Position numbers and translations under genes: made by a program
Assembly (NCBI GenBank): GCA_027023265.1
Contig: JALVVV010000049.1
Location: forward strand, 62,001-126,000
DNA from: DHVE2 group archaeon
GTDB taxonomy: Archaea; Thermoplasmatota; Thermoplasmata; Thermoplasmatales; Aciduliprofundaceae
DNA length: 64,000 bases
Direction of reading: 5' to 3'
The notes under the pieces: model-generated
Told to the model about the DNA's origin: nothing
Databases searched by the model: none
What the model saw: only the letters and a program-made list of their open reading frames with translations
In this document: positions 3,855-28,960 of the stretch, piece by piece
How positions within the stretch are numbered: the first letter of the stretch is position 1
Layout of the letters: every line of letters starts with the position of its first letter

Positions 3855-3906
3855 ATGCGGGGGCTGGGATTTGAACCCAGGAACCCCTACGGGACTGGCC
3901 CCTCAA
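3855..3906. repeat. attL: 52-bp copy of the tRNA-Leu 3' half
   Basis: atgcgggggctgggatttgaacccaggaacccctacgggactggcccctcaa, identical to 28875-28926. Confidence 0.95.
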
Positions 3907-4707
3907 CCGTACCGGTTTTCTCTGGATTACGCGTCTGTAAAGGCGGATTTTACGGTATGGCTAAGCAAGAGAGTCACATCCGAAAAATACGTGAAGGCCA
4001 TCATAAGCACCCTTGATAGATTTGTTGGAACTAAAATCATTAGTGACCTCCATGAACTATGGGAAATACGAGAAAAAGCAACCGGCAAGAAGTATATAGT
4101 CCTTGCACTCCGAAATCTACTGAACTATTATGAGGAATTTGATCTCATAGACCCAGGAACCTTGGTGAAATATCGAAGGATACTGAAAGTTGTTCGCTCT
4201 AACGTGGATAATTACATCCCTTCTAATGAAGAGGTGATAAAAGCATACAACGAGATTAACGACGACAGATACCGCGCCCTGTTTTTGCTTCTTACTGTGT
4301 CTGGGTTAAGAGTCATTGAGGGAGTGCGCTTGATAAATAATTTTGATAGATCAAGAGCTCATATTGCGGATAACTTTGTTCGTTTACCAATATTCTCTTT
4401 GCGGGGTACCAAGCGTTCTTACTATGCATACATGCCTGTGAATATCTTTGAAGTTATGAATAGGTATGAAATAACCGACAGGGGCGTAACCAATTATTTC
4501 GCAAGGCGTACACTCTCAACCAAGTACCTGCGCAAGTGGAACTACAACTTCCTCATCATGCACAACGTGCCGGAGAGCGTGGCAGATTTCATTCAGGGCC
4601 GCAGTCCCGTGAGTGTTGGCTCAATGCATTATCTGGCGAAGGTGAAGCAGGCCGATTACTGGTACCCGCAGGTGGTGGATGAGATGGTAAAGGTGTTTGA
4701 ACCATAA
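3871..4707 (+). CDS. SSV-type tyrosine recombinase, C-terminal portion int(C)
   Basis: Catalytic-type motifs LLTVSGLRVIEG and a C-terminal YW/Y region; the reading frame continues into the att repeat (CGGWDLNPGTPTGLAPQ). Confidence 0.85.
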   Translation: MNPGTPTGLAPQPYRFSLDYASVKADFTVWLSKRVTSEKYVKAIISTLDRFVGTKIISDLHELWEIREKATGKKYIVLALRNLLNYYEEFDLIDPGTLVKYRRILKVVRSNVDNYIPSNEEVIKAYNEINDDRYRALFLLLTVSGLRVIEGVRLINNFDRSRAHIADNFVRLPIFSLRGTKRSYYAYMPVNIFEVMNRYEITDRGVTNYFARRTLSTKYLRKWNYNFLIMHNVPESVADFIQGRSPVSVGSMHYLAKVKQADYWYPQVVDEMVKVFEP

Positions 4708-8041: not shown

Positions 8042-8719
8042 TTATATTTTTAATAAATATCCATTCTCCCGCAGCCACTCTGCCCTTTCTTCGTAATCGG
8101 GTAGCACCACGCGCACCGCGTTCCAGAAATTTTTAGTGTGGTTCTTCACCCTAAGGTGCACCAGCTCGTGTACCACCACGTAGTCCACTACGTTTATCGG
8201 AGCCATTATCAGGCGCCACGAAAAGTTTATGTTGCCGCTCGGAGAGCATGAACCCCACCTGCGCCGAGCATCTGTGATGTTTATCTTGTTGTATTTTAAC
8301 CCCATCATATTTGAATAGAACTTTGCACGCTCTTCGATCTTCTCATACGCTTTACTCTTGTACCAATCCACGAACACCTCTCTAGCATTTAGAAGGTATT
8401 GTTTAGATAAATAGAAATACCCCTGCAACTTTAAAGGAACATCTTGGGACTCTACAATTTTCAACCTGTAATTGCGCCCAAGATACAAAAACCCCTCTCC
8501 ATTCACAAACTCTTTCTCTTTGAATGGCGGGTCTCTAGACTTCACCTCTTCCAATTTCTTCTTGATCCACGGTTCTTTCTCTGCAAGCATCTTTTGTATT
8601 ACCGCATCACTGGCGTTCTTGGGCGCTCTCACTTCAACAGTACCATCATCCAAAACACGAATCGCTATTGTCTTTCTGTTGGTTCTGATTATGCGGTCCA
8701 CATCCACGATGCTCCTCAC
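8042..8719 (-). CDS. YgjP/DUF45-like (M48-type) zinc metallopeptidase
   Basis: VVDYVVVHELVHLRVKNHTKNFWNAV HExxH motif with conserved RRRWGSCSPSGNINFSWRL. Confidence 0.9.
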   Translation of the reverse strand: MRSIVDVDRIIRTNRKTIAIRVLDDGTVEVRAPKNASDAVIQKMLAEKEPWIKKKLEEVKSRDPPFKEKEFVNGEGFLYLGRNYRLKIVESQDVPLKLQGYFYLSKQYLLNAREVFVDWYKSKAYEKIEERAKFYSNMMGLKYNKINITDARRRWGSCSPSGNINFSWRLIMAPINVVDYVVVHELVHLRVKNHTKNFWNAVRVVLPDYEERAEWLRENGYLLKI

Positions 8720-11700
8720 CCCCCGTACAAATGCGCTGACAGTTCCATCAGCTTTTGTGCGATTTCGTTTCTTTTCTTTAATATCTCTTTTTTGTTGGGT
8801 AACCCTCTGATTGCGGGAAGCAGAATCTTGTTAATGATATAGCTCCGCACCTTCTTCTGCGCCACATCGTTCTCCCAGAAATCTACCTGCATAACAGACT
8901 CTTTAATGAGAGAAACTATGTCTTTTGTAAGAGCTACAAGAAGATCTATGTCCTCCTTTTTCATTTTTTCCGTGTCTATTTTTCCAAATATCTCCCTCTT
9001 TAACAACCCAAAATACGGCATCTCTTTTTGCGGGTCTAACCCGAACGTGTTTTCTGCAGCCCTGCCTCGCTTCATCTTTTCTCGCAATATCTTTAGCTGC
9101 TCTGAAAGCAGTTCCCAGTTACTTTTGTACTCTTCAATTATTCTTTTTAAAATCTCAGAGAACCTTTCGTACAACTCTGGGTCTTCTTCAAAATGCTTGA
9201 TTATGTACTCTCTAATTGCATACTCCAGCTCCTGTGCCCTAGGTTTTGCTGGCTTTTCATCTAATTTATCTATAAAATCGTCTGCGAATAATGGGGTGGG
9301 TGGAATCTTTGGATTTACTCCCTTCGACACCAGATACTCTTCCACAATCTCTCTTATCTTCTTGCTTGCATCTCTCAAGCTCAGCTTATCGTCTCTGTAC
9401 TGATTTCTAGCACTTGCTTTTATGTAATTGAGAATTTTCAAGTCTGGAGCGTACTTGAGCGCTTTTGGATCTGGCAAAACCTTATCCATAGCGCGGTTAA
9501 ATCTCCGCACCAGCGCAATAAACTCGTTTCGAGTCTCTTCGTCAACAAGCAGATCCACGCTTTCTTCTATGTCCCCCCTCCAGTTTTCTACTCCGTATTT
9601 TTTGAAAAATCCCTCTATTTCCGCGTGAATTAGCTCCAGTTCATCGTAAGCTTTGTTCTTGTTCATTACCACCGAAGAAATCTCATCCACGTCCTCGTTG
9701 GCGTATATGGCCAGTGCCTTACGCAGGTGCTTGAGCACTCCCACATAGTCAACCACAAACCCGCAGCTCTTGTTTTCGTATACTCTATTCACCCTTGCAA
9801 TAGCCTGCAGCAGGTTATGGTCCCTCAACACGTTGTCCAGATACATTACCTGCTCAATGGGCGCATCGAACCCAGTTATGAGCATCTTGTTCACTACAAT
9901 TATGCCCACATCCCCAGATATGCCCCGCTCGTCATGCGTATTAAACGGAATCTTGAAACTCTTGATTATCATATCGTGCTTGCTGGGATCCGTGTACTTT
10001 TTCATCTCTGGGTCATCGTTTGGTGAGCCGGATATTACCACTTCTATGCGCATCTTTTTGAGAGTGTCTAAATCTATGTTCTTCGGATTGCGCTTTTCCA
10101 GCTCTTCTATCTTCTGTTTTAGCGCCTCTTCCAGTGCAAGCTTGTATCTGATCGCCGCGAGCCTCGATACAGCCACTACTTGAGCTTTGAAGCCGTTTGG
10201 ATAAACATGGGTGAGATAATGCTCAATCATATCCTTCGCTTTGTCTTTTATTACATTATTATCTTCCAGATACGCTTTCCATGTGTACCGGCCCATTATT
10301 TTTGCTCGCTCGTCTTTGTCCACGGCGGCAAACACATCTTCAAACTTGGCGTTGGCCGCCTCTTCGTCACTGAGCTCGGCACTATGCACCCGACCCTCGT
10401 ACACTATCTCCACAGTGACTCCGTCTTCCACCGCCTGCCGGATGCTGTATTTGTCTATGTAATCTCCAAACGTTCTCTCAGTCTTGTCGATGGGCGTGCC
10501 CGTGAACGCCAATCTCGTAGCGCGGGGAAGCGCCTTTCTCAGATTTGCGCCCAGATATTTGTATTGTGTTCTATGCGCCTCGTCAATCATTATTAAAATC
10601 TTCTCAGAGGGATTCAATACAGGAAACTCAGATTTCAATTCTCTCTCTTGAAACTTATGCACCATGCCCATCACTATGTCCGGGGTATCGGTGCGAAGCA
10701 GTTCTTTTAAGTGCTGTATGCTCGATGCCAGATTGACCGTGTACCCTATGCTGCCAGCAGTATCCTTTAACTGCTTTTGCAGCGATTTTCTATCTGTTAT
10801 GAGAACAACTTTCCAGCCACGGAGCTCTTCGTCGTGATTCATTGCGCGGATGGTAAACACCATTGTAAGCGATTTGCCCGAGCCCTGTGTGTGCCAGATT
10901 ATGCCCCCGCGCTCTTCGGGAGTTTTTCCCTCTTTTAATCGCTTTATTATTTTCTTCACTGCTCTATACTGCTGGTACCGGGGCACTACCTTTATCGTTT
11001 TATCTTCATCATCTTTGAACACGGTGAACGTGTGCAGTATGTCCACGAGGTTGGATTTGGAGAGCATGCCAAGAATCAGCACCTGCTGACTAGTGTAAGC
11101 GGAGGTGTCCATATTTATGTCCTGAAGCTTGTGGGGGTACGGGTCTTTCCACTCTACAAAGTGCTCGGGATTGGCCGTGATTGAGCCGTACTTTGCCACC
11201 TGATTGGTAGTCGCAATCATGAACAGATTGTACCAGAACAGCTTCTCGTTTCCTTCTTTTACCCCTCTGCGATTTGAATAGCGCATGAGCTGCGTTATGG
11301 CTTCATTTATCGGGTCGGATATTGCCGGAGACTTGCACTCTATAACAACGAGAGGCATGCCGTTCACGAATAGCACGATGTCCGGAATGATATGGGTTTC
11401 CTTGCCTGTGATGTTTACCTTGTACTGCGATATCGCAACGAAGGAGTTGTTCTCCGGATGCTGGAAATCTATGTAATGCGCAACTGCGTTCTTCTCTCCC
11501 GTCTCTTTGCTCTCGCCCACCGCATAGCCTTCTAAAAGCAGATCGTGAATCTCGCGATTCGACTCAATAAGTGAATTTGCCTCAGGCGTGGTTATTCTCC
11601 TCACCGCCTGAGCAATCTGCGTCTCGTCCATCCACGGATTGATTCGTTTCAGAGATTCTCGCAGTTCGTCTTCAAGAATTACGGTTCTAAAACTCTCGCG

Positions 11701-11874
11701 AAATTTTATCTTTTTTCCATAAACCGGCTCGCCCCTGCTGTTAAACTTTACTATCTCTCTCACATCCCGCGGGTCTCCCTTGTTCTGCCTGTAAACTTTC
11801 CAGCCCTGCCTAAGCAGTTGCTGAAGAAACGTATTTTCCACGTAATGTTCCTCATCCAGCTTGGCGTAGGTCAT
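8716..11874 (-). CDS. hsdR: Type I restriction enzyme R subunit
   Basis: PDIVLFVNGMPLVVIECKSP nuclease motif, WHTQGSGKSLTM, MIDEAHRTQ, LAFTGTPID. Confidence 0.95.
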   Translation of the reverse strand: MTYAKLDEEHYVENTFLQQLLRQGWKVYRQNKGDPRDVREIVKFNSRGEPVYGKKIKFRESFRTVILEDELRESLKRINPWMDETQIAQAVRRITTPEANSLIESNREIHDLLLEGYAVGESKETGEKNAVAHYIDFQHPENNSFVAISQYKVNITGKETHIIPDIVLFVNGMPLVVIECKSPAISDPINEAITQLMRYSNRRGVKEGNEKLFWYNLFMIATTNQVAKYGSITANPEHFVEWKDPYPHKLQDINMDTSAYTSQQVLILGMLSKSNLVDILHTFTVFKDDEDKTIKVVPRYQQYRAVKKIIKRLKEGKTPEERGGIIWHTQGSGKSLTMVFTIRAMNHDEELRGWKVVLITDRKSLQKQLKDTAGSIGYTVNLASSIQHLKELLRTDTPDIVMGMVHKFQERELKSEFPVLNPSEKILIMIDEAHRTQYKYLGANLRKALPRATRLAFTGTPIDKTERTFGDYIDKYSIRQAVEDGVTVEIVYEGRVHSAELSDEEAANAKFEDVFAAVDKDERAKIMGRYTWKAYLEDNNVIKDKAKDMIEHYLTHVYPNGFKAQVVAVSRLAAIRYKLALEEALKQKIEELEKRNPKNIDLDTLKKMRIEVVISGSPNDDPEMKKYTDPSKHDMIIKSFKIPFNTHDERGISGDVGIIVVNKMLITGFDAPIEQVMYLDNVLRDHNLLQAIARVNRVYENKSCGFVVDYVGVLKHLRKALAIYANEDVDEISSVVMNKNKAYDELELIHAEIEGFFKKYGVENWRGDIEESVDLLVDEETRNEFIALVRRFNRAMDKVLPDPKALKYAPDLKILNYIKASARNQYRDDKLSLRDASKKIREIVEEYLVSKGVNPKIPPTPLFADDFIDKLDEKPAKPRAQELEYAIREYIIKHFEEDPELYERFSEILKRIIEEYKSNWELLSEQLKILREKMKRGRAAENTFGLDPQKEMPYFGLLKREIFGKIDTEKMKKEDIDLLVALTKDIVSLIKESVMQVDFWENDVAQKKVRSYIINKILLPAIRGLPNKKEILKKRNEIAQKLMELSAHLYGG

Positions 11875-11881
11875 GCTGCAC

Positions 11882-12802
11882 TCACTTGTCTCCTCTATTC
11901 ATTAACTCCTCCAAAGCATTTAAACATTTTTCTGTAACATCTAGTATGAAATGCTCCTCTTTCACAAAATTGTATTTTTCAGGCAAGTACTCCCATGGCT
12001 CCGGCGCCTTCTCATTCTCACAGCGAGGGTAACGAGTAAATGCCTCATGCGGAAATGTTAGAGCGGAGAGCATATAAAGTGTAACTGTGAGGGGGACAGT
12101 GATAGCAACATCTGCAACTTCTTTTGTGACCACATCCCTTTTATCAATTAGCATAACCCTTAATTCCTCTGGAATATCTTCATTTTCTAAAGTTCTGTAT
12201 GCCTCTTCAATAATTTTGTTGATTTGCTTGTAGTCCATAGAATTGTCAAAAGCCACAGACGCTCCTTTCAAAAATTCTTTGAAATAATTGTCTAAATCCA
12301 TGAGTTCTCTTCCTTCTTTCAAATCTTTAACAACTTCGAAAGCCTTATGAAACTTCCTTTTTTCTTCCTTTGGAATTAGCTGCTTTCCCGTTGCCTCTTT
12401 ATGGATTTTATCTATTCTTTCCATCACCTCATTAAACATTTTAATTATTAGTTTAACGCTTTCATGTGTGCGTGCTTTGTTGTCTATGCAGAAATCATTG
12501 GACGTGAGTTTTCCAAGCATTATCAGTAGTGCTTTAACCATCTTCTCAATGGCCTGCTCTAGATGATATACAGATAAGTTATAAATTCTGCAATCGTAGA
12601 GGATTCGGGCAGCTTTTATATCATCTCTGGCAACTTTCAGAAAACCCTCTGCAAACTCCCTGTCCCTCGGGGCAGGCTCTTTAAGGGAAATTGTCTCTAC
12701 AAGCTCCTGAAACTTGCGCTCATCAGCCATAGCGATATTTGCGGCCCCCTCAATAAGAAGTTCAGTTTTTCCCTCAACTGGATCTTTCTTTTCCATTACC
12801 AT
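11882..12802 (-). CDS. HEPN-domain protein in the hsd operon
   Basis: FLKVARDDIKAARILYDCRIYNLSVYHLEQAIEKMVKALL, typical HEPN N-terminus, with ARTHESVKLI. Confidence 0.75.
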   Translation of the reverse strand: MVMEKKDPVEGKTELLIEGAANIAMADERKFQELVETISLKEPAPRDREFAEGFLKVARDDIKAARILYDCRIYNLSVYHLEQAIEKMVKALLIMLGKLTSNDFCIDNKARTHESVKLIIKMFNEVMERIDKIHKEATGKQLIPKEEKRKFHKAFEVVKDLKEGRELMDLDNYFKEFLKGASVAFDNSMDYKQINKIIEEAYRTLENEDIPEELRVMLIDKRDVVTKEVADVAITVPLTVTLYMLSALTFPHEAFTRYPRCENEKAPEPWEYLPEKYNFVKEEHFILDVTEKCLNALEELMNRGDK

Positions 12803-14105
12803 CTCCTCCGTTCAGCAGCTGCGTAACCCTCACCCTCCCAGTGAGCAGGTCTTCCATCAATCCTCTTTTTTCCCTCTCTAGCTTTTCTTTATACATCTCC
12901 TCCTTCTCAATCACCGCGTCAATCTGAGATAGGATCTCAGCGATGCGCTTCTGCTCGGGGAGCGGGGGGAGAGGAAGTTTGAATTTTACAAAATCTCTCT
13001 GATATAGATGGTTTATTGTAGAACCTGCTTGAAGTATATCTATAAATCTATCAAAAATGGGTGAAGTTAACACGTAATACAAATATTTGGGATAATACGC
13101 ATTTTCTAATGGCCTTAAAATGAAAACTCCAGTGCCTAATGTTGCAGGTTTAGGGAGCTTATCAATATATGCCACTTTTCCTATTGTCCCATCTTTTGTA
13201 ACTAAAACTTCATTTCCTTTAAGTTGAATATTTTTATCCATTTCATATCTTCTTCTCGTCACATATACACATGTTTCCCAATCAATTTGACCATTTTTAA
13301 AATTTATTCCAGTCACTAAATAGTATTTACCATCTTCCAGATATTCTTGGGTAGTCAACCCTTGCCAGCCAATTCTTCCCTTTAAAAAGCTTATCTTACC
13401 CAATTCCACAACCTCCCACTCCTCTGGAATCCTGCCCAGTGGCGAGTCCTTGAACCTGTGCGTCTCCTTGCTGCGGCTCTTTCCGTTCTCATCAATGCCC
13501 CGTGTCAGCAAGTCCTGCATCAGGCCATACTTAATGCGCTTGTACTTCTCAATGATTGCGTCCGTCTTCTCTATGGCCCGGTCCACCGTCTCCAGAATCT
13601 CCGCGATCTTGCGCTGCTCGGGGAGAGGTGGTTTTAGTACATAAAAATTCTTGATAAAACTGGAAGGTAGACCTGGTTGAGCAGAGCCAGTAATTCTATC
13701 TTTTATTTGTTTTTGTCCAAATGATGATAAAAACCAATAAAATAAATATTTCTGATCAAAAAGTTTAGTACTCCTTACGATGAATAGGTGTTCATTTATT
13801 GCAATTTCAGGAGAGAACATTTCTCTAACTATTGCTACTTTGCCTGTATTTGCCCCATCTTTGTTTATTAGAATATCCCATCTTTTTACTTTTCCTTTTC
13901 TCATCTTTCTGAAAAAACTCTCAGGAATGTATTTTGCATTATCTTCTGTAAATTTAACTCTCCCGTCGTTTGTTATATGCTCGCCACCTAAACTTGGAAT
14001 CTGGCCTTCATCCAAAGCCCCCCCTGAGGGTCGGATGCCTGATATTAAAACAACATCACGCTCTATCGATACTTTTCTCCAGTCTTGGGGAATATTCACT
14101 AACAT
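12774..14105 (-). CDS. hsdS: Type I restriction specificity subunit
   Basis: Two target-recognition-type halves each ending PPLPEQ(R/K)(K/R)IAEIL; start probably MLVNIPQDW at about 14105 (ORF open to 14186). Confidence 0.93.
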   Translation of the reverse strand: MLVNIPQDWRKVSIERDVVLISGIRPSGGALDEGQIPSLGGEHITNDGRVKFTEDNAKYIPESFFRKMRKGKVKRWDILINKDGANTGKVAIVREMFSPEIAINEHLFIVRSTKLFDQKYLFYWFLSSFGQKQIKDRITGSAQPGLPSSFIKNFYVLKPPLPEQRKIAEILETVDRAIEKTDAIIEKYKRIKYGLMQDLLTRGIDENGKSRSKETHRFKDSPLGRIPEEWEVVELGKISFLKGRIGWQGLTTQEYLEDGKYYLVTGINFKNGQIDWETCVYVTRRRYEMDKNIQLKGNEVLVTKDGTIGKVAYIDKLPKPATLGTGVFILRPLENAYYPKYLYYVLTSPIFDRFIDILQAGSTINHLYQRDFVKFKLPLPPLPEQKRIAEILSQIDAVIEKEEMYKEKLEREKRGLMEDLLTGRVRVTQLLNGGDGNGKERSS

Positions 14106-14112
14106 ATCTTTG

Positions 14113-14655
14113 CTAAATCCTCTCACCCCCTTCAAAAAATTGCACATCTGTAACTTCATTCTTGCCAAACTCAAGATAAATGCCATATTTATAGTTCAAT
14201 TCCTTAGTAAACGCTTTTAATTTTTTAAAGTCTTTGAAATCATCATTTTTATTTTGAGTTGCAGGGTTGCTTGCTTTCTTCACCTCTATAACTAAAAAAT
14301 TATGTTTATTTGTCCCTCTTTTGTGCACAATTATGTCAGGAAAGACAGTATTTCCATTAGGATCGTCCGAGGATGTGTTTTCTACCTCTAGATTTAATCT
14401 TTTTACAACATATTCCCTGTCCATAACTCTATCCGGCATTCTATTGTACTCACAATCTACATTATATTCAGGATACTCCCTTTGTAGATATTCCGCGAGC
14501 TTATGCGTTATCGTCCTTTCATTGAGTTCATTCTCAAGTAAAAAACTCTCATTTTTAGAAAAATCTTTAACAGCGTTTACAAAACCGCTCATATTTTCCC
14601 ATGTCTCTGGGATTTTTTCGATTTTTGTCACACTATATCTTTCCTCGTCTCCCAT
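14113..14655 (-). CDS. PD-(D/E)XK nuclease-like protein in the hsd operon
   Basis: FPDIIVHKRGTNKHNFLVIEVKKAS pattern. Confidence 0.6.
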   Translation of the reverse strand: MGDEERYSVTKIEKIPETWENMSGFVNAVKDFSKNESFLLENELNERTITHKLAEYLQREYPEYNVDCEYNRMPDRVMDREYVVKRLNLEVENTSSDDPNGNTVFPDIIVHKRGTNKHNFLVIEVKKASNPATQNKNDDFKDFKKLKAFTKELNYKYGIYLEFGKNEVTDVQFFEGGERI

Positions 14656-14656
14656 C

Positions 14657-14980
14657 TCACACCACCAGTATTATAATTCCCACGATTACAGAGCAATATG
14701 CCCAATTAATTACATAGAATATTTCGGGAAGGCTCTCTTTGACACCATAGGAGATAATTGCAATAATACCCACTATTAACCCAATATCTGCATATACAAC
14801 AAGCCAAAAGTTCTCTATGCCACGTGTGGCAAGGTATGTGTTTAGAGCTATTACATTGACAAAGGTCGCTGGCCTAGACACAAACTCCTTTTCCACGAGG
14901 AAACCTATCAAAAGCATACTCAATGGGCCAATTTTGTCGAGCCACACGGGTGGAATTGCAGAGAACCATAGCCAGCTCAT
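14657..14980 (-). CDS. Small multi-TM membrane protein in the hsd operon
   Basis: 107 aa with about three hydrophobic segments, tightly packed between hsdM and the PD-(D/E)XK-like gene. Confidence 0.65.
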   Translation of the reverse strand: MSWLWFSAIPPVWLDKIGPLSMLLIGFLVEKEFVSRPATFVNVIALNTYLATRGIENFWLVVYADIGLIVGIIAIISYGVKESLPEIFYVINWAYCSVIVGIIILVV

Positions 14981-14983
14981 ATA

Positions 14984-17476
14984 TCACACCCCGTAATACC
15001 CTAACCTCTCCAGGAACTCGTTCAGCTTTTGCACCTCTCCATCCCTCTCTTTCCGCAACTGCGTAATTGGCACGTGGTACTTGTCCCAGAGCTTCTCGAT
15101 TATACGCACCAGCTCCTTCTTCTCCCCGTTGAGGTACTTCTCCAAGTACTTTGCAATCGTGTCGTGGAACTTCTCAAGAATGAGCTCCTTTGCCTCATCG
15201 TCGCTCAGGCTCTTTCTCTTTATATCCACCAGTCCCTCCTTAACTTTGACCATCTGTTTCGTTCCCTCTTCCTTCTTGTACTTGCCCCGCAGTTCCTCCT
15301 CCTTCTTCTTCAGCGCCCTCTTTACTTTGCTCAGCTCCTTGTTCTTGGCGTCAATCTTCATCATAAGCTCCTGCAGCTTTCTTATCTCCCGCTCGGCAGA
15401 TTCTCCGCTGTACGCGCTCAGGTCTTTGATCTGCGATTTCAGGAACTCCATAACCTTCTTGGCGCTCTTCTTTCCGTTCTCTTCCTCGTCCCACTCTTCC
15501 ACTTCCTCAAGCAGCTCGTTCAACTCTCCCTCCAGCTCTGCTACCTTCGCCTCCAACTCTTCTATCTCCTCCTTCATTGCGGAGAAGTATTTCCTCTCAA
15601 TTCTCTCATCCTCTATCAATTTCCTGCTCCATCCCGAGGCGACCACCGACTTGAAATCGTACCTCAAATCTTCCCACCAGTTTGCAAACACGCCCGCAAC
15701 TTTGAACTCGTCCAGCACGCCGAGTGGAAGCAGCATTTCTTCCAAGCGGCTCATCGCCCTGCCCCTGAACTCCCATAAGTTGTTGTTATCCGGAAATTTC
15801 TCAATCTCTTTGTTTACCTCTCTCCACCACTCATCCAGCTTGGTGAAATGCTCTCTGTAAACCTGCATCACTCCTTCTTGCTCTTCAACCAACTCTCGAA
15901 TTCTGCTTTTGTCATCAATTTCTCCTCTGAACTTAAAGTATTTTTCATCTTTGTCCACGAAGAACGCACTCGCGGAAACCCTGAACTTGTCCATCTCTCT
16001 TCGATATCGCTCCACCTCGCGCTTTGGCACACCGCCAACGAGATGCGCGTGCACATCCTCTATCTCCGGGTCTGGGGAGTTGTCTACGTATCTACGGATA
16101 TTAAGATTGAAATCATTCTCTTCAATCTCTTTAATATCCACGAGTCGTGAGTACTTGGGAATCTCCAGCTTGTTATAAAACACGGTAACTATCTTTTCGA
16201 TATCCTCCGGACGCAAATAGTTCTGGTTCCGGCCCTCGCCGTATTCTCTATCTGCGTTGATGAACAAAATCTTGTTTTTCATCTCCTTCGGTTTGTTCTT
16301 GTTTATAACTACCACACATGCGGGTATGCCCGTGTTGTAGAACAGCTTCGGTGGGAGCCCGATAATCGCCTCAATTATGTCATCCCTAACTATTCCCTCG
16401 CGTATGAGCTTCTCTGGACCACCGCGGAAAAGCACGCCGTGGGGCATTACTGTTGCCATTATGCCATCATCTTTCAAGCTTGCAATCATGTGCTGCAAAA
16501 ACATCAGGTCCGCTTTCTTGCTGCCCTTGGGCACTGAGCCGTACTTGAAGCGCTCAGGATACCGTACTTGCTCATTTGGAAAAACTTGCGAGAACGGCGG
16601 ATTTGCCAACACGCGATCAAATTGCTTGATGTAGCCGTTCTCCACAAATTTTGGAGTGACAAGCGTGTCATCGTTTTCAATGTGCGCGTCTGCGATGCCA
16701 TGCAGAATCATGTTCATCTTGCATATGGACCATGTCACCCCGTTATACTCTTGCCCATAGAGTGCAAGCTTGGATGGGTCTTCCCCCCTTTCTTCCACAT
16801 AGTGCCGCGCTTCAATTAGAAATCCTCCAGAGCCTACCGTTGGATCGTAAACGGTCATGCCTTCCCGTGGCTTGACCAGCCGCACCATGAGTTTCTTCAC
16901 ATGAGCGGGCGTGTAGAACTCTCCTCCCTTCTTGCCTGCAGAGTCGGCAAATTCTTTGAGCAAGTACTCGTAGGCAGCCCCAAGCAAGTCCGGAAACTCG
17001 AAATCTTCATTTCTTAATCGGTACTTGTTAAAATGGTGAATTAGATCCACAAGTTGCTTATCTTTTAACCGCGTCTTACCTTTTTGCTTGGTGAAATCTA
17101 TTGATTTAAGTACTCCGTCGAGCGTGTGGTTTGCCTCTTCAATGGCAGCAAGTGCTTTGTTCAGTTCCGAGCCCACATTCTCCTTGAGTTGCAATATGTT
17201 TTTCCATCGCGCCCGCTCAGGGACAAAGAAGGTCTCTCCGTAAATAGTATGGTCTTCAAGCAGTTCTTGAATATCGTCATCCGAGTATCCCAATTCACGA
17301 TAGTACTCTTCTAACTCCTCTCTTTTAGCATCAAACACATCGGAGAGACGCTTTAAAAACAGCATACCAAAGATGTATTCTTTGAACTCAGATGGGTCCA
17401 TCTTTCCGCGTAAAATGTCCGCAGCGGCAAATAAGTGATTCTCAAGCTGTTTAAGCGTAATTTTGTTGTTTGGCAT
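14984..17476 (-). CDS. hsdM: Type I restriction-modification DNA methyltransferase subunit
   Basis: [23 protein letters not shown]; HsdM N-terminal domain; coiled-coil C-terminus. Confidence 0.95.
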
Positions 17477-18468: not shown

Positions 18469-19503
18469 ATGAGACAAAAAAAAGAAATATCGGATTTCGA
18501 AAGGCATATCGCAATCTTGGGCCACCGTGATTTTTATGGCCTCTTCGCCGGGCGCCCGGAACTTGTGAATGATATCGCGTGGAGAGTGCCAGAGAGTTCG
18601 CCATACAAGCGCTGGGAATGGGTGAAAAGAGAGGAACTGCTGGAGCGCGTAGAAGAATACCAACAGCTTGGATGGACAGTGTGGATCTCTCTGAATGACA
18701 TGGAGCCAGGGCATATGATAGTAGATAGTGTGCGTCGTATCTCCGTTATATGGTTTGATGTGGACGCACCACGCTCGGACAAAACAAGGCCTGCAGACGA
18801 GGAAGAAAAGCTGATTGCAAAGTTAGAGACAGAGAAGTTGAATAATTTCCTCCAAAGGAAGTACAAAGCAAAGTGCTTCTTAGCATGCAGCGGAAATGGA
18901 TGGCACTTGTACTGCCCGATACAAACCATAGAGCTACCAACTGCAAAGCACTCTTGGGATTTCAATGCACGGTTGAGAGAGTGGATGAAGAGAGTAAAAG
19001 AAGAAAGCGGCGTTGAATTCGACCATACTTACAACATAAATCGACTGGTGCAGCCGATCGGATTTCCAAATCTGAAGATTCCACATCACCCGCTGCCTAC
19101 TTACTGGTATGACAAATTTGACATGGGGGACATAGAAAACGCCAGAGAACAGAATGCGACACTTCTTGAGAGCATTTTAAATGTGACGGGAGAGAGCACG
19201 AATAAGATAAACAAGAGCATTTCGCAGCCCACTCGCAAGCATCCAACCATCGAGGAACTCATGCATAGGGACAAGTGGTGTCGTGATATCTACGAAGGCA
19301 GGTGGGCCCAGGACGGGTACCCGAGTCGTAGTGAAGCTGAACTTGCCTGCGTACGTGAGCTTGTGTATCAGGGCTTCACGGACGCTGAGATCAACGAAGT
19401 GATGATGCGCTGCGGCATCGGCAAATGGCAAGCGGCGGGAGAGAGCTACCGTCGTAATACCATCCGAAAAGCGAGATTATGGGAATCAAGAAAAAGGAGG
19501 TGA
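18469..19503 (+). CDS. PrimPol-type archaeo-eukaryotic primase
   Basis: IWFDVDAP (DxD), CSGNGWHLYCPI (sxH), RLVQPIGFPNLKIP motif III-like, C-terminal SRSEAELACVRELVYQGFTDAEINEVM helical domain. Confidence 0.8.
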   Translation: MRQKKEISDFERHIAILGHRDFYGLFAGRPELVNDIAWRVPESSPYKRWEWVKREELLERVEEYQQLGWTVWISLNDMEPGHMIVDSVRRISVIWFDVDAPRSDKTRPADEEEKLIAKLETEKLNNFLQRKYKAKCFLACSGNGWHLYCPIQTIELPTAKHSWDFNARLREWMKRVKEESGVEFDHTYNINRLVQPIGFPNLKIPHHPLPTYWYDKFDMGDIENAREQNATLLESILNVTGESTNKINKSISQPTRKHPTIEELMHRDKWCRDIYEGRWAQDGYPSRSEAELACVRELVYQGFTDAEINEVMMRCGIGKWQAAGESYRRNTIRKARLWESRKRR

Positions 19504-19507
19504 AAGA

Positions 19508-21127
19508 ATGGAAAAGAAGAAGGTGAAAAAAGAGAAAAAAGATTATGAAGAGGCAGTTTTTGTAGAGACACAAGATGGAATATATCTGGCAGTGCGCGGA
19601 GGAGCCGAGAAGTATTACTTCGCGTACTTAGATGAAGACCAAGGAAAAGTAGCACTTGTTGAAGAACTGAAAATAGACGGAAAGAAATACCGACCACTTG
19701 TGCCAAAGCTCGACAAGAAAGGGCACCGGTTACCCGTTGAGTACCCAACAACCAACATAGTTAACGCGGAGCATATAGAAACACCGGAACTATTCACGAA
19801 AATAAAGGAACACCTGAGAAAATATGTGGACCTGCCTGAGAATGAACTCGAGCTTGTAGTGTTCTTTATACTTTTTACGTGGTTTTACAGAAAATCGAAC
19901 ACGGTTGCGTATCTCCGCTTCCTTGGTGACAGTGGAAAGGGCAAATCGAGAATGCTCACGGTTACGGGAGATTTGTGTTTTTATCCCCTGATGTTGGCAG
20001 GCACGGCGACTCGCAGTGCGATTATGCGAGTGCAGGAGATTGCAAAAGGGACACTCGTGCTCGATGAGGCCGATTTCAAAGGTGATAAAGAAAATGATCT
20101 TGTGAAATTCATAAACGCGGGCTTCGAAAGGAGGAAAGTAGCCATAATGAGCAAACGTAATGACCCATCGAAAATCGAGGCTTTTGACCCGTTCTCACCT
20201 AAGATATTTGCCATGCGAGAGCCATTCAGGGACGCTGCAACAGAAGGGAGAATTTTATCAATATCTCCGTACGAGACAAACCGTAGGGACATTCCACCGG
20301 TGCTACCAACTACATATTTTGAAGAGACAGAGAGGCTTAGGGATATGATAGCATCATGGTGTTTAAGAAACTGGAGAAGAGTTAATGACGAGAAAATCGA
20401 GCTTGTTCAGCAGCTGCCCGTGGAGCCAAGACTCAAGCAGCTGGCGGCTCCCCTTTCTATCATTCTTCCACTTTTCGGGGACGGCATCATACAAAACTCC
20501 TTCGTTAAATGGCTTCTGGAAAGGCAGAAAAAGATTGCCGAGCAAAGAGCAAACAGTGCGGAGGGCCAGATATTCAATGCAATAGTTGATATTGCACAGG
20601 GCATAATCCACGGCAAGGATTTGCCAGAGAAATTCAAAAAATACATAACTTACGCGTATTACGAAGACACCGAAGGCGAGGGAAAGATTGTTGCGATTAC
20701 AGCAGGCATGTTAGCGGAGATAACTGGAATGAGCAATGCAAAAATTAGTAGGCTAATGCAAGAGCTCGGATTCCACACGAAAAGAAGAACCATAACAATA
20801 GGGGACGCAAAGGTGCGTGGTAGATATATTTATCTTACTGATACGCGGAGATGGGTTGAAGGATGGAGAAAGTACAGGGCAAATGAGTCCATAATGGAGA
20901 TTCCCGAGATTATAAAGGATCCGGAAATTGACTACGAATCCTTGCTTGATTTACTGCCAGAGCCCACGGAAATAGAACTGGAGATTTTAATCAATGAGCT
21001 ATGCAAGGAGGAAAACACAGTCAACTGCCGCGTGTTAGAGCCGTTCTCTTGGTACTCTGAGGTGTTGGGGAAAAGATGTGCTCCTACCGGCTGGCTCAGT
21101 GTTGAAGTGCCCAATAGAATTGGCTGA
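19508..21127 (+). CDS. P-loop ATPase/replicative helicase-like protein
   Basis: RFLGDSGKGKSRML Walker A, TLVLDEADF Walker B, downstream of PrimPol; C-terminal winged-helix-like segment AEITGMSNAKISRLMQELGF. Confidence 0.7.
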   Translation: MEKKKVKKEKKDYEEAVFVETQDGIYLAVRGGAEKYYFAYLDEDQGKVALVEELKIDGKKYRPLVPKLDKKGHRLPVEYPTTNIVNAEHIETPELFTKIKEHLRKYVDLPENELELVVFFILFTWFYRKSNTVAYLRFLGDSGKGKSRMLTVTGDLCFYPLMLAGTATRSAIMRVQEIAKGTLVLDEADFKGDKENDLVKFINAGFERRKVAIMSKRNDPSKIEAFDPFSPKIFAMREPFRDAATEGRILSISPYETNRRDIPPVLPTTYFEETERLRDMIASWCLRNWRRVNDEKIELVQQLPVEPRLKQLAAPLSIILPLFGDGIIQNSFVKWLLERQKKIAEQRANSAEGQIFNAIVDIAQGIIHGKDLPEKFKKYITYAYYEDTEGEGKIVAITAGMLAEITGMSNAKISRLMQELGFHTKRRTITIGDAKVRGRYIYLTDTRRWVEGWRKYRANESIMEIPEIIKDPEIDYESLLDLLPEPTEIELEILINELCKEENTVNCRVLEPFSWYSEVLGKRCAPTGWLSVEVPNRIG

Positions 21128-21675: not shown

Positions 21676-24600
21676 TTAGGAATATTTACGATATTTCTCA
21701 AATAAAATCATAGAAATTAGTGTGAAGATCACTGTCCAAATTCCTGCAGATAATTCTGGAATTGTTCCAGGTGGTGTGGCTTGCACCTCGTTGCTAGGGT
21801 TACTCTCCCCGGCGGAGTTGATAGCGGTTACATAATACGTGTATGTTTGCCCACCAACTACATTGGTATCATTGTAGTATGTTTGATTCGGTGATACTGT
21901 TACGACAAGTACTCCGTTTTTGTAGATATTGTAACCTTTAATGGGGTACCCACCATCACTCACTGGAGGTTGCCATGTCAAATTAACATACCCATCACCA
22001 ACTGTTGCATTAAGATTAGTTGGACTCTCAGGTTTTCCAACAGGCCTGGCGGTTACATTCTCACTGGGTTTGCTCTCAAAGAACTGATTCAACTGTGTGA
22101 GATAGTATGTGTAATTCACTCCATTCACAACATTTTTATCAACATAGTTTGTAGTGTATGAATCTACCTTCTTTAAGAAAACTCCATTTCTGTAAATGTT
22201 TATTCCCTTACGGTATGCACCGTCTCCACCCCACGAAGATATACTCCACGTAAGGGTTACTTCTCCATCCCCGGCTACAGCCTTAACGTTCTTTGGTGGG
22301 TCAGGTGGATTTACAATTATAACATTCACTGTGTTGCTTGGAGGGCTCTCCGTAGCAGCCACCGCACTTACATAATAGAAGTATTTGTAACCATTGGATA
22401 CACTTGTATCATTGTACCACAATTGATTTGCATCCACCGTTGCAATGCGCTGAGTTGAGTACCATCCACCCACACCATTGGTATAGTACCTATAAACGTA
22501 ATACTTTTTAATGGGAACACCACCATCGGAGATAGGTGCTTTCCAGCTAAGGTTTACATAGGTGTTGTTAACGCTGTAGTTTGATAGGGTCAGATTCAAT
22601 GGAGCGGACGGATCTCGCAAAATTATTGGATATTTTAAAGGATAGGGATCAGATACATATGCATTTATAGAGAGATCTTCTTTAATTCTGTATGGCCAGT
22701 CCACAAAACCATCACCATTCTGATCATTGGTATCGTTATTATTTGCCCAGTCATACCAGTAATTTCCATATCCTCCCTCTGAATACCATTTATTATAATA
22801 TGAGGCATCATAAATTCTAGCCTGAACATGGGAACTGTTGTATGTACCATTGGACCCCCTATTGTAATAGAAGAAATTATCGTATATTTTAAGTCCTCCG
22901 CATTCATATAAATATATGCCCGGACCTCTGTTTTTCCAAAGTGTATTCGATCTTATAACAGTATAATACTTCTCTAACTCACTGGCCCCTTTGAAATAGA
23001 TGCCAACACTTTCAGTATATGTATTGTTTGTAAATGATACGTTGTTTAATTCTATGAGAGAATTACTTACACTGTGAATATCTATCCCGTACTCGGATGA
23101 ATGAGATATGTTGTTATATCTAACCAGATTGTATTTACCACCACTCATATACAAACCCATGCTTGTGTTGTATACTGTGTTATTTATAATTTTAACATTG
23201 GATGATGATTCCACATCAATTCCCGTGGTCATATTTATGAACAGGTTATCTCTTATTGTCACGTTGGCACTTAAATATTTAGCAGAGATACCTTTTGTTA
23301 GCACATCTTTTATTGTGTTTCTGGATACTATGATGTCTCTTCCTTTGTAAATATAGAAGGGTTCAGAATATACGTTGGGTATGTGCTCGATTCTGTTGTA
23401 TTCTACCGTGATGTTCTTGGAAGATGCGAAATCTATTATGTGGTAGGGCTGGTAATATACATATATGTTTTTACCTGTAAATCGATTTCCTTGCAAAGAC
23501 ATGTTTTCAGAATCTAAAACAATAACTCCGTTTTTGGTTATGTTCAGCAAGGTGTTGTTGGTAATGCTTGTATTTCCAGAGTCTTTAATATAAATTACCG
23601 TGTTTTGCGTGTAAGTGAATGTGAAATTCGCTATTTTAATCCAGTTGGAACCTTCCACAAAGAACCCATAAGAGGAATTTGTAACATTTCCATGTTCAAA
23701 ATAACCATTGGTGGAATTATGACTCATTACCCCCCTGCTAACCGATTCAATACTCATATTATAAACATTTATTTCCGTAGAGTTGTAGTCAAATATTCCA
23801 TAGTAAGATTCATTTATTGTAATTTGGCCAATACTTATATTTTTGCTGTAGGCCAAGAGAAAACCCTCGTATTCATTGGAGATTTTTCTCCCGATGAAAG
23901 TTATATCGCTACAGTTAACCAGACCTATGAAACCGTAATCCCCTGAAATGGATGTTCCACTAACATTGGTAAGATATAAAACCTCTTTACCGTCAACAGT
24001 ATTCGTTTTGTCAATCCTCTGAAAATAGTGAGACTCTTTGTTTCCAATAATACCCAGATTGTATCTGTTTCCAGACATGTTATTCATTGACATAGTATTT
24101 GGATTTGCATAGTATATCATGATTCCAACCACACTACTGTTAGATATACTGTTGTTTCTTAATTCATTGTGATACGTCGAATTTGCAATGTACAGACCAA
24201 ATTCCGTGGATAAGAAAATTGTGTTGTTATTTATCCTATTACCATATCCACCTTCCACGTCTACACCCCTACTGCAGTTCAAATATACATTAGATTCATC
24301 TTTAACACCAGAGGATGAATCGATATATGTCCCATATTTAGATACATTTGAGAAGTTATTTTTTAGTACTATTACATCACTCACATTGACCACATAAACT
24401 CCAGCAGTATCGTTTGAAAATGTGTTTGCATTAACATTAATGGCGGAAGAGTTTTTCGCAAAGACTCCATAGTTCATACTATCAACCTTACATCCGTTTA
24501 TTGTTACTGAACTATCTCCATAAAGTATTACCCCTGCATTTCCCCTTTTCATCATATCTTTTTCAACTGTTATACTGGTGCTATTCGTAATATTGTATCC

Positions 24601-26442
24601 TGTGGTATTTTCCACCGTGTTTTGATGTAAATAAAGGCTGTTTGCGCCATCTGCGAATACCATGGTGTTTGAATCCACCGCTTTTATTTCCGTTCCGTTT
24701 ATGTTCTCAGATTTGTAGATAAACACTCCGTACATACTGTTGTTTATGAAATTGGATTTTAATTTTATATTACTGGTGAATGCGATGAGCATGCCCTGAT
24801 ATCCATGGGAGATTTTTTTATTCCATACCGTGATATTCATACAGTTTACCAAACCTACAAAGGCATAATCTCCTGTTATGTTCACATTTTCATCATTTAA
24901 TAGATAAAGGATTTCACGGCCATCTATTGTATTGGATGTATCAACTGACTGTATGTAATTCTCTAATTGCGTTCCCCACACTCCAAAATTGTAACGGTTA
25001 TTGTTCATACTGTTTCTATAAAATTTGTTCTCCTTCGCATTGTAGATGTACATGGCAACCCACGTGGATCCAGTAATCCTGTTATTTTCAATCCTATTGT
25101 TGTATGCATTTCCTGTTACGTATATTCCATAGCGTGTGGAGTTTTGCACAGTGTTATTGGCAATCTCATTGCCTGTGGAATTGAAATCAACGTTTATACC
25201 TATCTTACATTTGAAATAATTATTTAGAATCACATTAATTGCTGAAGAATCCGTCAAATGCACACCATTGGTATTATAATCCAACTCATTATACTCAACG
25301 GTAACATCCTTTGTGTTGTATATGCGAATTCCATCATCGTTTTTAAAAACATGGTTTCCCTTTACCATATTGCTGCTGCTCGAAATATATATGCCGTACT
25401 GCTGAGTATAATATGAAGAAGTTGAATGCACCGTGTTGTTTGTGATAGTATTGTGCGAAGCGTATATGTTTATTCCACCGAGATAGTTGTTGTAAACATC
25501 GTTACCCTTTATGAGATTTTCAGAAGATGAACCGGTTACATATATTCCGTACTCGTTTGAGTAGACGGTATTATTTAAAACAAGATTGTTTGTAGAATCT
25601 TTCAGGAAAATACCTTTCTTATAATTGTCGTATACGTTATTTTTTGAAACGGTTATATTGTTTGAACTTATCAGATTAATCCCGTTGGCGTTGCTGTACC
25701 AATAAGAGTACGCGTTGCTTACATTATTTTTATAGATTAGGGAGTTATTTGATTCGTAAAATTCAATGTTACCGTACTGAGATGAGCCGGTCATGGTTGA
25801 ATTGGATATTGTGATTTGATGAGAATTTGAGATTTCAACATTGTAATTTGAGTTATGCAAAGAAAGATGATCCAGCAAAATCTTTGAGGAATTATAGATG
25901 TAAACCCCATGCCATCCGTTATACTTTATGGTCGTTGAAATTATTGTTATGTTGAAGGAATTTTGTATATTTACCCCACACTCCTGAACATTGGTGTTAA
26001 GTGTTGATTTGTTGATCAGGATATTATGAGAGTTCACAATATGCACACCCGTATTCTCGTTGTTATGGATGTTATCCTTGTATATTACCGCGTTGCTGAC
26101 ATTGACCAACATAATGCCGTCCTTGGAGGCACCCAAAATTTCGGAGTTCTCTATTTTGAAATATACTGTTGTGTTTGCTATGTAAATACCGTAGGCCTTA
26201 TTGGATAAATCCAAATAGTACCCTGAAAGGATGTACGGGTTATCTTTAGTTCCATTTCCCGGAATACTGTTGTTTTCTGCGTACTGTTTGAACTCTTGGT
26301 TGCTTTCTATCATTATGGCAGCCGATACTCCCCGTAACCTCACAATCTCATGACTATTTGCATTGTTATTCCCAAATCCAACTCCAAGAGAACTGAGTAG
26401 AAATACTACTAACATTCCTACAATCACAATCCTCCCTTTCAT
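21676..26442 (-). CDS. Large cell-surface protein: signal peptide, NosD/PbH1 beta-helix repeats, three FN3-like domains, C-terminal TM anchor
   Basis: MKGRIVIVGMLVVFLLSSLGVGFG; many NNxxx/NSSxNxI repeats; three PxPP..L(T/N)WxxPxSDGG..YYV blocks; IPELSAGIWTVIFTLISMILFEKYRKYS. Confidence 0.9.
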   Translation of the reverse strand: MKGRIVIVGMLVVFLLSSLGVGFGNNNANSHEIVRLRGVSAAIMIESNQEFKQYAENNSIPGNGTKDNPYILSGYYLDLSNKAYGIYIANTTVYFKIENSEILGASKDGIMLVNVSNAVIYKDNIHNNENTGVHIVNSHNILINKSTLNTNVQECGVNIQNSFNITIISTTIKYNGWHGVYIYNSSKILLDHLSLHNSNYNVEISNSHQITISNSTMTGSSQYGNIEFYESNNSLIYKNNVSNAYSYWYSNANGINLISSNNITVSKNNVYDNYKKGIFLKDSTNNLVLNNTVYSNEYGIYVTGSSSENLIKGNDVYNNYLGGINIYASHNTITNNTVHSTSSYYTQQYGIYISSSSNMVKGNHVFKNDDGIRIYNTKDVTVEYNELDYNTNGVHLTDSSAINVILNNYFKCKIGINVDFNSTGNEIANNTVQNSTRYGIYVTGNAYNNRIENNRITGSTWVAMYIYNAKENKFYRNSMNNNRYNFGVWGTQLENYIQSVDTSNTIDGREILYLLNDENVNITGDYAFVGLVNCMNITVWNKKISHGYQGMLIAFTSNIKLKSNFINNSMYGVFIYKSENINGTEIKAVDSNTMVFADGANSLYLHQNTVENTTGYNITNSTSITVEKDMMKRGNAGVILYGDSSVTINGCKVDSMNYGVFAKNSSAINVNANTFSNDTAGVYVVNVSDVIVLKNNFSNVSKYGTYIDSSSGVKDESNVYLNCSRGVDVEGGYGNRINNNTIFLSTEFGLYIANSTYHNELRNNSISNSSVVGIMIYYANPNTMSMNNMSGNRYNLGIIGNKESHYFQRIDKTNTVDGKEVLYLTNVSGTSISGDYGFIGLVNCSDITFIGRKISNEYEGFLLAYSKNISIGQITINESYYGIFDYNSTEINVYNMSIESVSRGVMSHNSTNGYFEHGNVTNSSYGFFVEGSNWIKIANFTFTYTQNTVIYIKDSGNTSITNNTLLNITKNGVIVLDSENMSLQGNRFTGKNIYVYYQPYHIIDFASSKNITVEYNRIEHIPNVYSEPFYIYKGRDIIVSRNTIKDVLTKGISAKYLSANVTIRDNLFINMTTGIDVESSSNVKIINNTVYNTSMGLYMSGGKYNLVRYNNISHSSEYGIDIHSVSNSLIELNNVSFTNNTYTESVGIYFKGASELEKYYTVIRSNTLWKNRGPGIYLYECGGLKIYDNFFYYNRGSNGTYNSSHVQARIYDASYYNKWYSEGGYGNYWYDWANNNDTNDQNGDGFVDWPYRIKEDLSINAYVSDPYPLKYPIILRDPSAPLNLTLSNYSVNNTYVNLSWKAPISDGGVPIKKYYVYRYYTNGVGGWYSTQRIATVDANQLWYNDTSVSNGYKYFYYVSAVAATESPPSNTVNVIIVNPPDPPKNVKAVAGDGEVTLTWSISSWGGDGAYRKGINIYRNGVFLKKVDSYTTNYVDKNVVNGVNYTYYLTQLNQFFESKPSENVTARPVGKPESPTNLNATVGDGYVNLTWQPPVSDGGYPIKGYNIYKNGVLVVTVSPNQTYYNDTNVVGGQTYTYYVTAINSAGESNPSNEVQATPPGTIPELSAGIWTVIFTLISMILFEKYRKYS

Positions 26443-28022: not shown

Positions 28023-28493
28023 TCAACCCGTGGAGAGCTTTTGTGTGAGTTTGGCGATTGCGTAAACCGTGTCCTCGCTGTCTTGGGTGTGCATAACAAA
28101 TATCGCGTTTCTGATGCACCACTCTTCCACGCCGATGAGCGTGTGCCTCTTCACTGGATCATCCGGCAGTTCTCCCTCTATAACCAGAATCGGAACTCTT
28201 TTCTCTCCCTTCAGTTTAAGCAGTTGCGTAAATAACCGTCTCTCCCTTCCTTCCTTTTTGGGTTCTCCGTGTTCGTACACGTTCCTTGAAAGAGATATGA
28301 ACAGATCATTAATTGTCTTTCGCTCAATATGATACTCAATTGAGGAAGTTTTTATTACGTAATCCCCTCCATCCTTGCGAAGATCTTTTACAATCAGCTG
28401 TATGCCGAGTTCCTCGAGCTTTTCTTTCAATTTCTCTTTTATCTTTGCAGGTTCGTAAGCGTCCACGAAAACATTAACAGTCATTGATTTCAT
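28023..28493 (-). CDS. Stand-alone ERCC4/XPF-like nuclease domain protein
   Basis: DGGDYVIKTSSIEYHIERKTINDLFISLSRNVYEH (GDYxI..ERKxxxDL pattern). Confidence 0.75.
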   Translation of the reverse strand: MKSMTVNVFVDAYEPAKIKEKLKEKLEELGIQLIVKDLRKDGGDYVIKTSSIEYHIERKTINDLFISLSRNVYEHGEPKKEGRERRLFTQLLKLKGEKRVPILVIEGELPDDPVKRHTLIGVEEWCIRNAIFVMHTQDSEDTVYAIAKLTQKLSTG

Positions 28494-28544: not shown

Positions 28545-28798
28545 GTTGCACAACCTTTAATACGAATGTCAGCTAAGGACAACCATGGATCTCGCGGCGT
28601 ATGAGGAGATAGGAAAATGCAAGATATCCCTTAAAAGAGCGAAGAAAAACATTTCTTATCCCATGGTTCGGTTTCCCCACGAGTATCTCCATATAGCGGG
28701 CAAACAGGCGAGGATTTACCGTGTGGACAATAACTCCTACTTGGTCGTGATTCAGGACGACGAAGAGTTGCACAACCAACCCAAAAAGTTGCACAACC
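28545..28798. repeat. Three copies of GTTGCACAACC near the att site
   Basis: Copies at 28545-28555, 28767-28777 and 28788-28798. Confidence 0.8.
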
Positions 28799-28926
28799 CG
28801 AAGGGCATATTATCTATGAGAGAAAATTCAAATGATGTCACAGAAATCCGCAAAAATACCCAAAACCCCAAGGGATGCGGGGGCTGGGATTTGAACCCAG
28901 GAACCCCTACGGGACTGGCCCCTCAA
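28585..28926 (+). CDS. SSV-type integrase, N-terminal portion int(N)
   Basis: MDLAAYEEIGKCKISLKRAKKNISYPMVRFPHEYL...NPKGCGGWDLNPGTPTGLAPQ enters the att repeat in the same frame as int(C). Confidence 0.8.
28875..28926. repeat. attR: 52-bp repeat overlapping intact tRNA-Leu
   Basis: Identical to 3855-3906. Confidence 0.95.
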
Positions 28927-28960
28927 GCCAGCGCCTTTGGCCAAGCTCGACAACCCCCGC
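28877..28960 (-). tRNA. tRNA-Leu (GAG anticodon)
   Basis: GCGGGGGTTGTCGAGCTTGGCCAAAGGCGCTGGCTTGAGGGGCCAG...GGTTCAAATCCCAGCCCCCGC; anticodon loop TTGAGGG; long variable arm; paired acceptor stem. Confidence 0.95.

Follow-up and report, generated by a model that had tools for sequence, protein, structure and literature searches.

Are the two halves of a self-destroying integrase gene, parted by the integration that the enzyme itself performed, really dead? This question is raised by a 64,000-nt stretch of DNA (the window; assembly GCA_027023265.1, contig JALVVV010000049.1, positions 62,001 to 126,000, forward strand) from a deep-sea DHVE2 group archaeon (Thermoplasmatota; Thermoplasmata; Thermoplasmatales; Aciduliprofundaceae), the assembly of which comprises 1.64 Mb in 59 contigs. 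A sequence-only reading had proposed that ORFs at 28585 and 3871 share an att repeat and a reading frame and that, when joined, they restore a single gene. The window does contain a perfect 52-bp repeat, the two copies of which bracket a 25.0-kb element (Table 1), and a 31-base core of this repeat is found at two sites only in the 1.64-Mb host assembly, both of them the att copies. Joining 28585–28926 to 3907–4707 yields 1,143 nt in a single open frame, encoding 380 aa plus a stop, and the identical 380-aa protein is obtained with the junction placed at the repeat end. This join, together with the pairing of homologous halves in a sister genome, confirms the proposed reconstruction. The boundaries of the two ORFs need adjustment. 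The ORF at 28585 does enter the att repeat, but it does not stop there and runs on to 29031 (148 aa), antisense to a tRNA; similarly, the right-hand ORF leaves the repeat in frame, but position 3871 is a TTG inside the repeat and the frame is open from 3829.

The tRNA identity of the repeat was absent from that reading. Apart from one base, the 52 bp correspond to nucleotides 35–85 of an 85-nt minus-strand tRNA-Leu(GAG). The tRNA gene is intact at the intN side, and a 3′ fragment of it remains at the intC side. With the repeat copies so placed, the element is about 25.0 kb in length and the tRNA is kept whole beside intN. Two features of SSV-type integrases are found here: the att site lies within a tRNA gene that is left intact (40–50 bp in the class, 52 bp here), and attP lies inside the integrase gene, integration yielding int(N) and int(C). 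Judged from the sequence, an exact 52-bp repeat flanking a domain-bearing gene is not the product of chance.

Table 1. Features of the split integrase locus and its element, in window coordinates
Feature	Position	Strand	Evidence
att, IntC side; 52-bp 3′ fragment of tRNA-Leu(GAG)	3855..3906	.	Exact repeat of 28875-28926
intC; C-terminal 266 codons + stop, core-binding and catalytic domains	3907..4707	+	PF16795; SSV1 Int structures by sequence and fold
Type I restriction-modification island	8042-17476	- for 8716..17476	PADLOC, Pfam
HsdR	8716-11874	-	PADLOC/Pfam
HEPN protein	11882-12802	-	PADLOC/Pfam
HsdS	12774-14186	-	PADLOC/Pfam
Nuclease-like protein	14113-14655	-	PADLOC/Pfam
HsdM	14984-17476	-	PADLOC/Pfam
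Primase-like replication protein	18469..19503	+	PHROG 1829 DNA primase, 1e-8
ATPase/helicase-like replication protein	19508..21127	+	~50% identity to part of C30 944-aa Rep
ERCC4/XPF-type nuclease, divergent from intN	28023..28493	-	PF02732
GTTGCACAACC copy 1; intN promoter, 40 bp before ATG	28545..28555	+	Motif search
intN; N-terminal 114 codons, last 17–18 att-encoded	28585..28926	+	In-frame join with intC; homologues by intact tRNA genes
GTTGCACAACC copy 2; inside intN, 108 bp before att	28767..28777	+	Motif search
GTTGCACAACC copy 3; inside intN, 87 bp before att	28788..28798	+	Motif search
att, IntN side; within intact tRNA gene	28875..28926	.	Exact repeat of 3855-3906; ARAGORN tRNA call
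tRNA-Leu(GAG), intact target; att = nt 35–85	28876..28960	-	ARAGORN

The joined protein matches Pfam PF16795 (Phage_integr_3) across residues 217–372 with E = 1.2e-44 and 152.5 bits (cut-off 27), a domain by which 'suicidal' integrases of the SSV, pTN3 and pT26-2 families are recognized (PMC8371274). An alignment of 14 IntCs identified the catalytic set as R249, K283, K320xxR323, R346 and Y356 in the numbering of the joined protein, which is the IntC numbering plus 102; in IntC numbering, R147, K181, R221, R244 and Y254 are invariant among the 14 relatives and K218 is nearly so. Aligned to SSV1, these residues follow the class pattern R..K..(K/A/H)xxR..Y. The set that had been anticipated, R..HxxR..Y, is therefore present in full except that its box is KxxR, as in SSV1, and not HxxR. 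IntC and IntN were modelled as separate chains. The best solved matches to the IntC model (pLDDT 84) are the SSV1 Int catalytic domain structures 3uxu and 3vcf (E = 2e-7; TM-score on target, 0.84), and so the suggested comparison with SSV1 Int by structure prediction, made here with this half only, bears out the expected relationship. Over IntC, the closest named integrases are those of pT26-2 (36%, 2e-38) and Archaeoglobus profundus pleomorphic provirus 1 (36%, 1e-38). The PF16795 domain, the antisense att slot and the SSV1-like fold of IntC agree with the original proposal that the integrase is of the SSV type and was parted by the integration that it carried out. With the repeat, frame, domain, catalytic residues, intact tRNA and sister-species arrangement all directly observed, we regard the 25-kb segment as almost certainly a plasmid-like element that integrated at tRNA-Leu(GAG) by means of an archaeal suicidal (SSV-type) integrase, the gene of which was split there. 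The integrase-splitting design is already known in other archaea, and the example here comes from the Aciduliprofundum/DHVE2 lineage.

The structure model of IntN is of low confidence (pLDDT 64). No fold match to it was found in the PDB, and no match to the protein was found in Pfam, NCBIfam or PHROG. An AbrB-like fold had been guessed from the sequence pattern, but hhalign with an AbrB-type domain encoded in this genome returned no match, and IntN is assigned no fold. Our homology searches met the IntN family only in Aciduliprofundaceae, where homologues adjoin intact tRNA genes in genomes G230, G409, G350, G411 and G407.

The closest comparison is offered by the sister genome G230 (DHVE2 group archaeon isolate S142_16; contig C62, WAOD01000062.1), in which the element copy is partly assembled. 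Its IntC (95%) adjoins the same host helicase gene as in the window, and its IntN (85%) and tRNA-Leu(GAG) adjoin the same phosphoribosyltransferase genes. Because each half thus lies beside matching host genes, the same split gene with the same junctions is present in two species. In the other genomes, the tRNA beside intN is tRNA-Leu(GAG) (G409 and G350), tRNA-Phe (G411) or tRNA-Ser (G407). None of the relatives compared shows an unoccupied site between these neighbours: G230 shares the insertion, and in the others the left host genes are on one contig and tRNA-Leu(GAG) is on another. Further arrangements were seen among other IntCs. In another DHVE2 MAG (L036; WAOY01000182.1, 3215-3812), a truncated and frameshifted IntC lies by phosphoribosyltransferase and histidine kinase genes and is a decayed remnant of a related element. 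A tandem IntC pair (L037; G248:C11, 5326-10816), each member following a tRNA-Ala-like att (46-bp repeat), is accompanied by a third partial copy and represents repeated integrations at a single tRNA gene. Finally, an apparently intact PF16795 integrase (L053; G375:C5), with a frame that has no tRNA-derived stretch and with no tRNA nearby, is possibly a non-suicidal member of the family.

A second split PF16795 integrase is present in the host genome itself, in an element of about 6 kb (the C30 element; G000:C30:7927-14050, L046 2928-9051). The copies of its 56-bp direct repeat lie 6.0 kb apart, one end holds an intact tRNA-Leu(TAG), and the integrase halves join to 386 aa, counted from ATG. 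Its att site is the 5′ half of tRNA-Leu in sense orientation, the pTN3 type; one genome thus holds an att of each geometry, the 3′ part of a tRNA in antisense and the 5′ half in sense. The C30 element encodes a 944-aa primase/helicase-like Rep, part of which is about 50% identical to the ATPase/helicase-like protein of the window. Besides the window and C30 integrases, the host genome has no PF16795 match; because both are split, no intact PF16795 gene was found that could excise either element. Eight PF00589-type matches are also present in the genome, and nothing points to their acting on the window att.

Because int lies antisense to tRNA-Leu(GAG), the peptide that separates IntN from IntC, GGWDLNPGTPTGL, is translated from the antisense strand of the T-arm. 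An antisense tRNA peptide fills the same slot of int in SSV1, pT26-2, TPV1 and pGE2. In related IntCs of other Thermoplasmatota, the att peptides derive from several tRNAs, and an IntC of G417 (L034; G417:C71, 272-1111) that has the same tRNA-Leu(GAG) att reads this DNA in a different frame from the window. The change of frame shows that the sequence of the linker is not conserved and, with this variety of peptides, suggests that the att-encoded stretch may be a tolerant one. In the circular form of the element, int would run without interruption from 28926 into 3907, with attP inside the gene and the antisense of the tRNA 3′ half acting as the linker that joins the N-terminal domain to the catalytic part. 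The integrase would have recombined attP with the tRNA-Leu(GAG) gene, and strand exchange most likely took place at the anticodon loop, because it is in this loop that the repeat reaches its IntC-side end; this agrees with SSV1, for which exchange at the loop has been shown (PMC8371274). Recombination would have restored the whole tRNA beside intN and parted intN from intC by 24 kb. Autonomous excision would have been lost in this way, and excision would depend on an incoming related integrase, possibly with help from IntC. The need of a trans source for excision is established for the suicidal-integrase class (PMC8371274), and such a requirement here would fit the finding of no intact PF16795 gene in the host genome.

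The cargo of the element is listed in Table 1. An ERCC4/XPF-type nuclease gene lies beside intN in G230 and G350 as well, and the type I restriction-modification island was not seen in the assembled part of the G230 copy. A YgjP-like metallopeptidase gene lies inside the island, with the HEPN gene. Positions 21676-26442 encode a predicted surface protein of 1588 aa with right-handed beta-helix/NosD repeats and three FN3 domains; the G230 relative carries one.

Constraint on the two halves was compared between the window and G230, a single genome pair with few changes. IntC exhibits dS of 0.26, dN of 0.021 and dN/dS of 0.08, and its ratio of synonymous to replacement changes (39:13) is similar to that in four host genes (264:77; Fisher P = 0.72). 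By contrast, IntN exhibits dN/dS of 0.84 and a ratio of 4.5:15.5, which sets it apart both from IntC (P between about 3e-5 and 3e-4) and from the host genes (P = 2e-6). Along the element, dS is 0.08 for IntN, 0.18 for the ERCC4 gene, 0.26 for IntC and 0.50 for the helicase, and it is 0.35 for host genes. These values are suggestive of an IntC that may have been constrained after integration and an IntN that may have been relaxed. Because dS of IntN is 0.08 and that of the host is 0.35, simple neutral drift of IntN since the host split is excluded; its pattern would also follow if the IntN half had recently been re-integrated or exchanged.

What has preserved the halves can be read in more than one way. 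The chances are about even that they belong to a family of elements that keep circulating, with an integrase that is complete only across many hosts. Selection would then have acted while the copies were free, integration at this tRNA would have happened independently and more than once, and the conservation of the halves would not reflect a function of the fragments. The occurrence of one IntN family beside three different tRNA genes in relatives, the unevenness of dS along the element (0.08 to 0.50) and the lack of the restriction-modification island from what is assembled of the G230 copy are consistent with such circulation, but the identical host junctions of the window and G230 are not readily accommodated by it, and dS of IntC is near that of the host, as inheritance in place predicts. 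A less probable reading, held tentatively, is that IntC is still made and used alone, aiding excision by an incoming integrase or acting as a weak recombinase, and that IntN is a decaying or repurposed fragment. The host-like dN/dS of IntC and its difference from IntN point in this direction. In TKV4, IntC is apparently expressed, with in vivo evidence that it can be made and can matter, and SSV1 and SSV2 IntC are weakly active in vitro (PMC8371274). However, the asymmetry comes from one genome pair with few changes, dS of IntN is below that of the host and re-integration or exchange of IntN also fits. Moreover, the only start codons before the catalytic part are the TTG inside att or a GTG at 3991, the tRNA promoter points away from intC, and the L036 IntC is broken. 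The notion that an unrelated ORF pair happens to abut copies of a tRNA fragment, by chance or through misassembly of a genome in 59 contigs, has a negligible probability and is refuted for practical purposes by the frame and PF16795 domain, by the paired homologues in the separately assembled G230 and by the C30 element of the same design in the host genome.

For an integrase split by its own integration, our preferred reading of the locus, a motif at intN raises a further possibility. With up to one mismatch allowed, GTTGCACAACC occurs at three sites in the 64-kb window, all exact and all at intN. The count itself is unremarkable, since at least three sites occur in 7 of 100 whole-window shuffles; the clustering at intN is remarkable. 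All three sites are retained in G230 and G409, one of them mismatched. In G350 and G407, in which IntN is diverged, GTTTTAAAAC is found instead, both in the promoter and inside intN, and in G411 GTTGCACAAC is found inside intN only. In the window, G350 and G407, promoter and coding sequence have no longer word in common than the motif (11 bases each), with shuffle P values of 0.0055, 0.018 and 0.0115 (combined P = 1e-4), values to be read with the motif having been noticed first and tested afterwards, and with G350 and G407 as partly independent tests. No such shared promoter/intN word is present in SSV1, pTN3, TPV1 or the C30 element. The motif is palindrome-like, and its flavour changes in concert between the promoter and the att-proximal sites. 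We read these as candidate binding sites of a protein that the element encodes, the simplest choice being the N-terminal domain of the integrase, with arm-type sites beside attP and an operator in its own promoter. For archaeal integrases, the terms arm-type and autoregulation do not appear in the text of a 2021 review (PMC8371274); a report on the bacterial KplE1 intS concerns tight regulation of an integrase gene and is taken as a lead only (PMC2951348). A fuller scheme, in our view unlikely, is that the N-terminal domain binds the palindrome-like sites in the promoter and the pair by attP, that after integration orphan IntN, which keeps its promoter, represses int of incoming related elements, and that IntC is kept for trans-assisted excision. 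If true, the splitting of the integrase would be a functional switch and not plain suicide. The motif and the asymmetric constraint on IntC and IntN could be new and are put forward as hypotheses; the constrained IntC, the seemingly relaxed IntN and a motif that co-varies between the promoter and the flank of att lead to concrete predictions.

The 2021 review tabulates the host groups with published cases, and the Aciduliprofundum/DHVE2 lineage is not among them (PMC8371274). A search that mostly did not reach subscription literature found no paper on SSV-type integrases in Thermoplasmata, and a first report is not claimed. Among named systems, the integrase of the element resembles those of pT26-2 (a plasmid of Thermococcus sp. 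26-2) and pGE2 in the PF16795-type catalytic part (36% IntC identity to pT26-2) and in an att that is the antisense 3′ part of a tRNA at the same position in int. The element differs from pT26-2 in the N-terminal domain, IntN having given no match to pT26-2, in the tRNA used and the replication genes, and in its host (Thermoplasmatota versus Thermococcales). Integrase subfamilies have been delimited in a network at identity of at least 30% over 60% of the protein (PMC8371274); pT26-2 matches the 278-aa IntC query at 36% over 99%, or about 70% of the joined protein, which is a pairwise figure, whereas the subfamily criterion is one of network clustering. Archaeoglobus profundus pleomorphic provirus 1 is likewise 36% identical, and its intC is immediately preceded by an att that resembles tRNA-Leu(GAG), but it is pleolipovirus-like and only its C-terminal part is annotated as integrase. 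With SSV1 (Fuselloviridae), the window integrase shares the split on integration, the KxxR box, the catalytic fold and an in-gene site antisense to a tRNA, the SSV1 record annotating a 44-bp integration site within int; identity is about 25%, and SSV1 is a virus, whereas the window holds a plasmid-like element with restriction-modification cargo. The suicidal design and the PF16795 relationship are also common to pTN3 and TKV4, but identity is only 26% and the window att is the 3′ part of the tRNA, in antisense; the pTN3-like arrangement, in which att is the tRNA 5′ half and the tRNA is read from the int promoter, is not that of the window, and its 5′-half feature is found in C30. These comparisons extend the suicidal-integrase design to the Aciduliprofundum/DHVE2 lineage of Thermoplasmatota, twice in one genome, and make the persistence of self-destroying integrases testable in a new setting.
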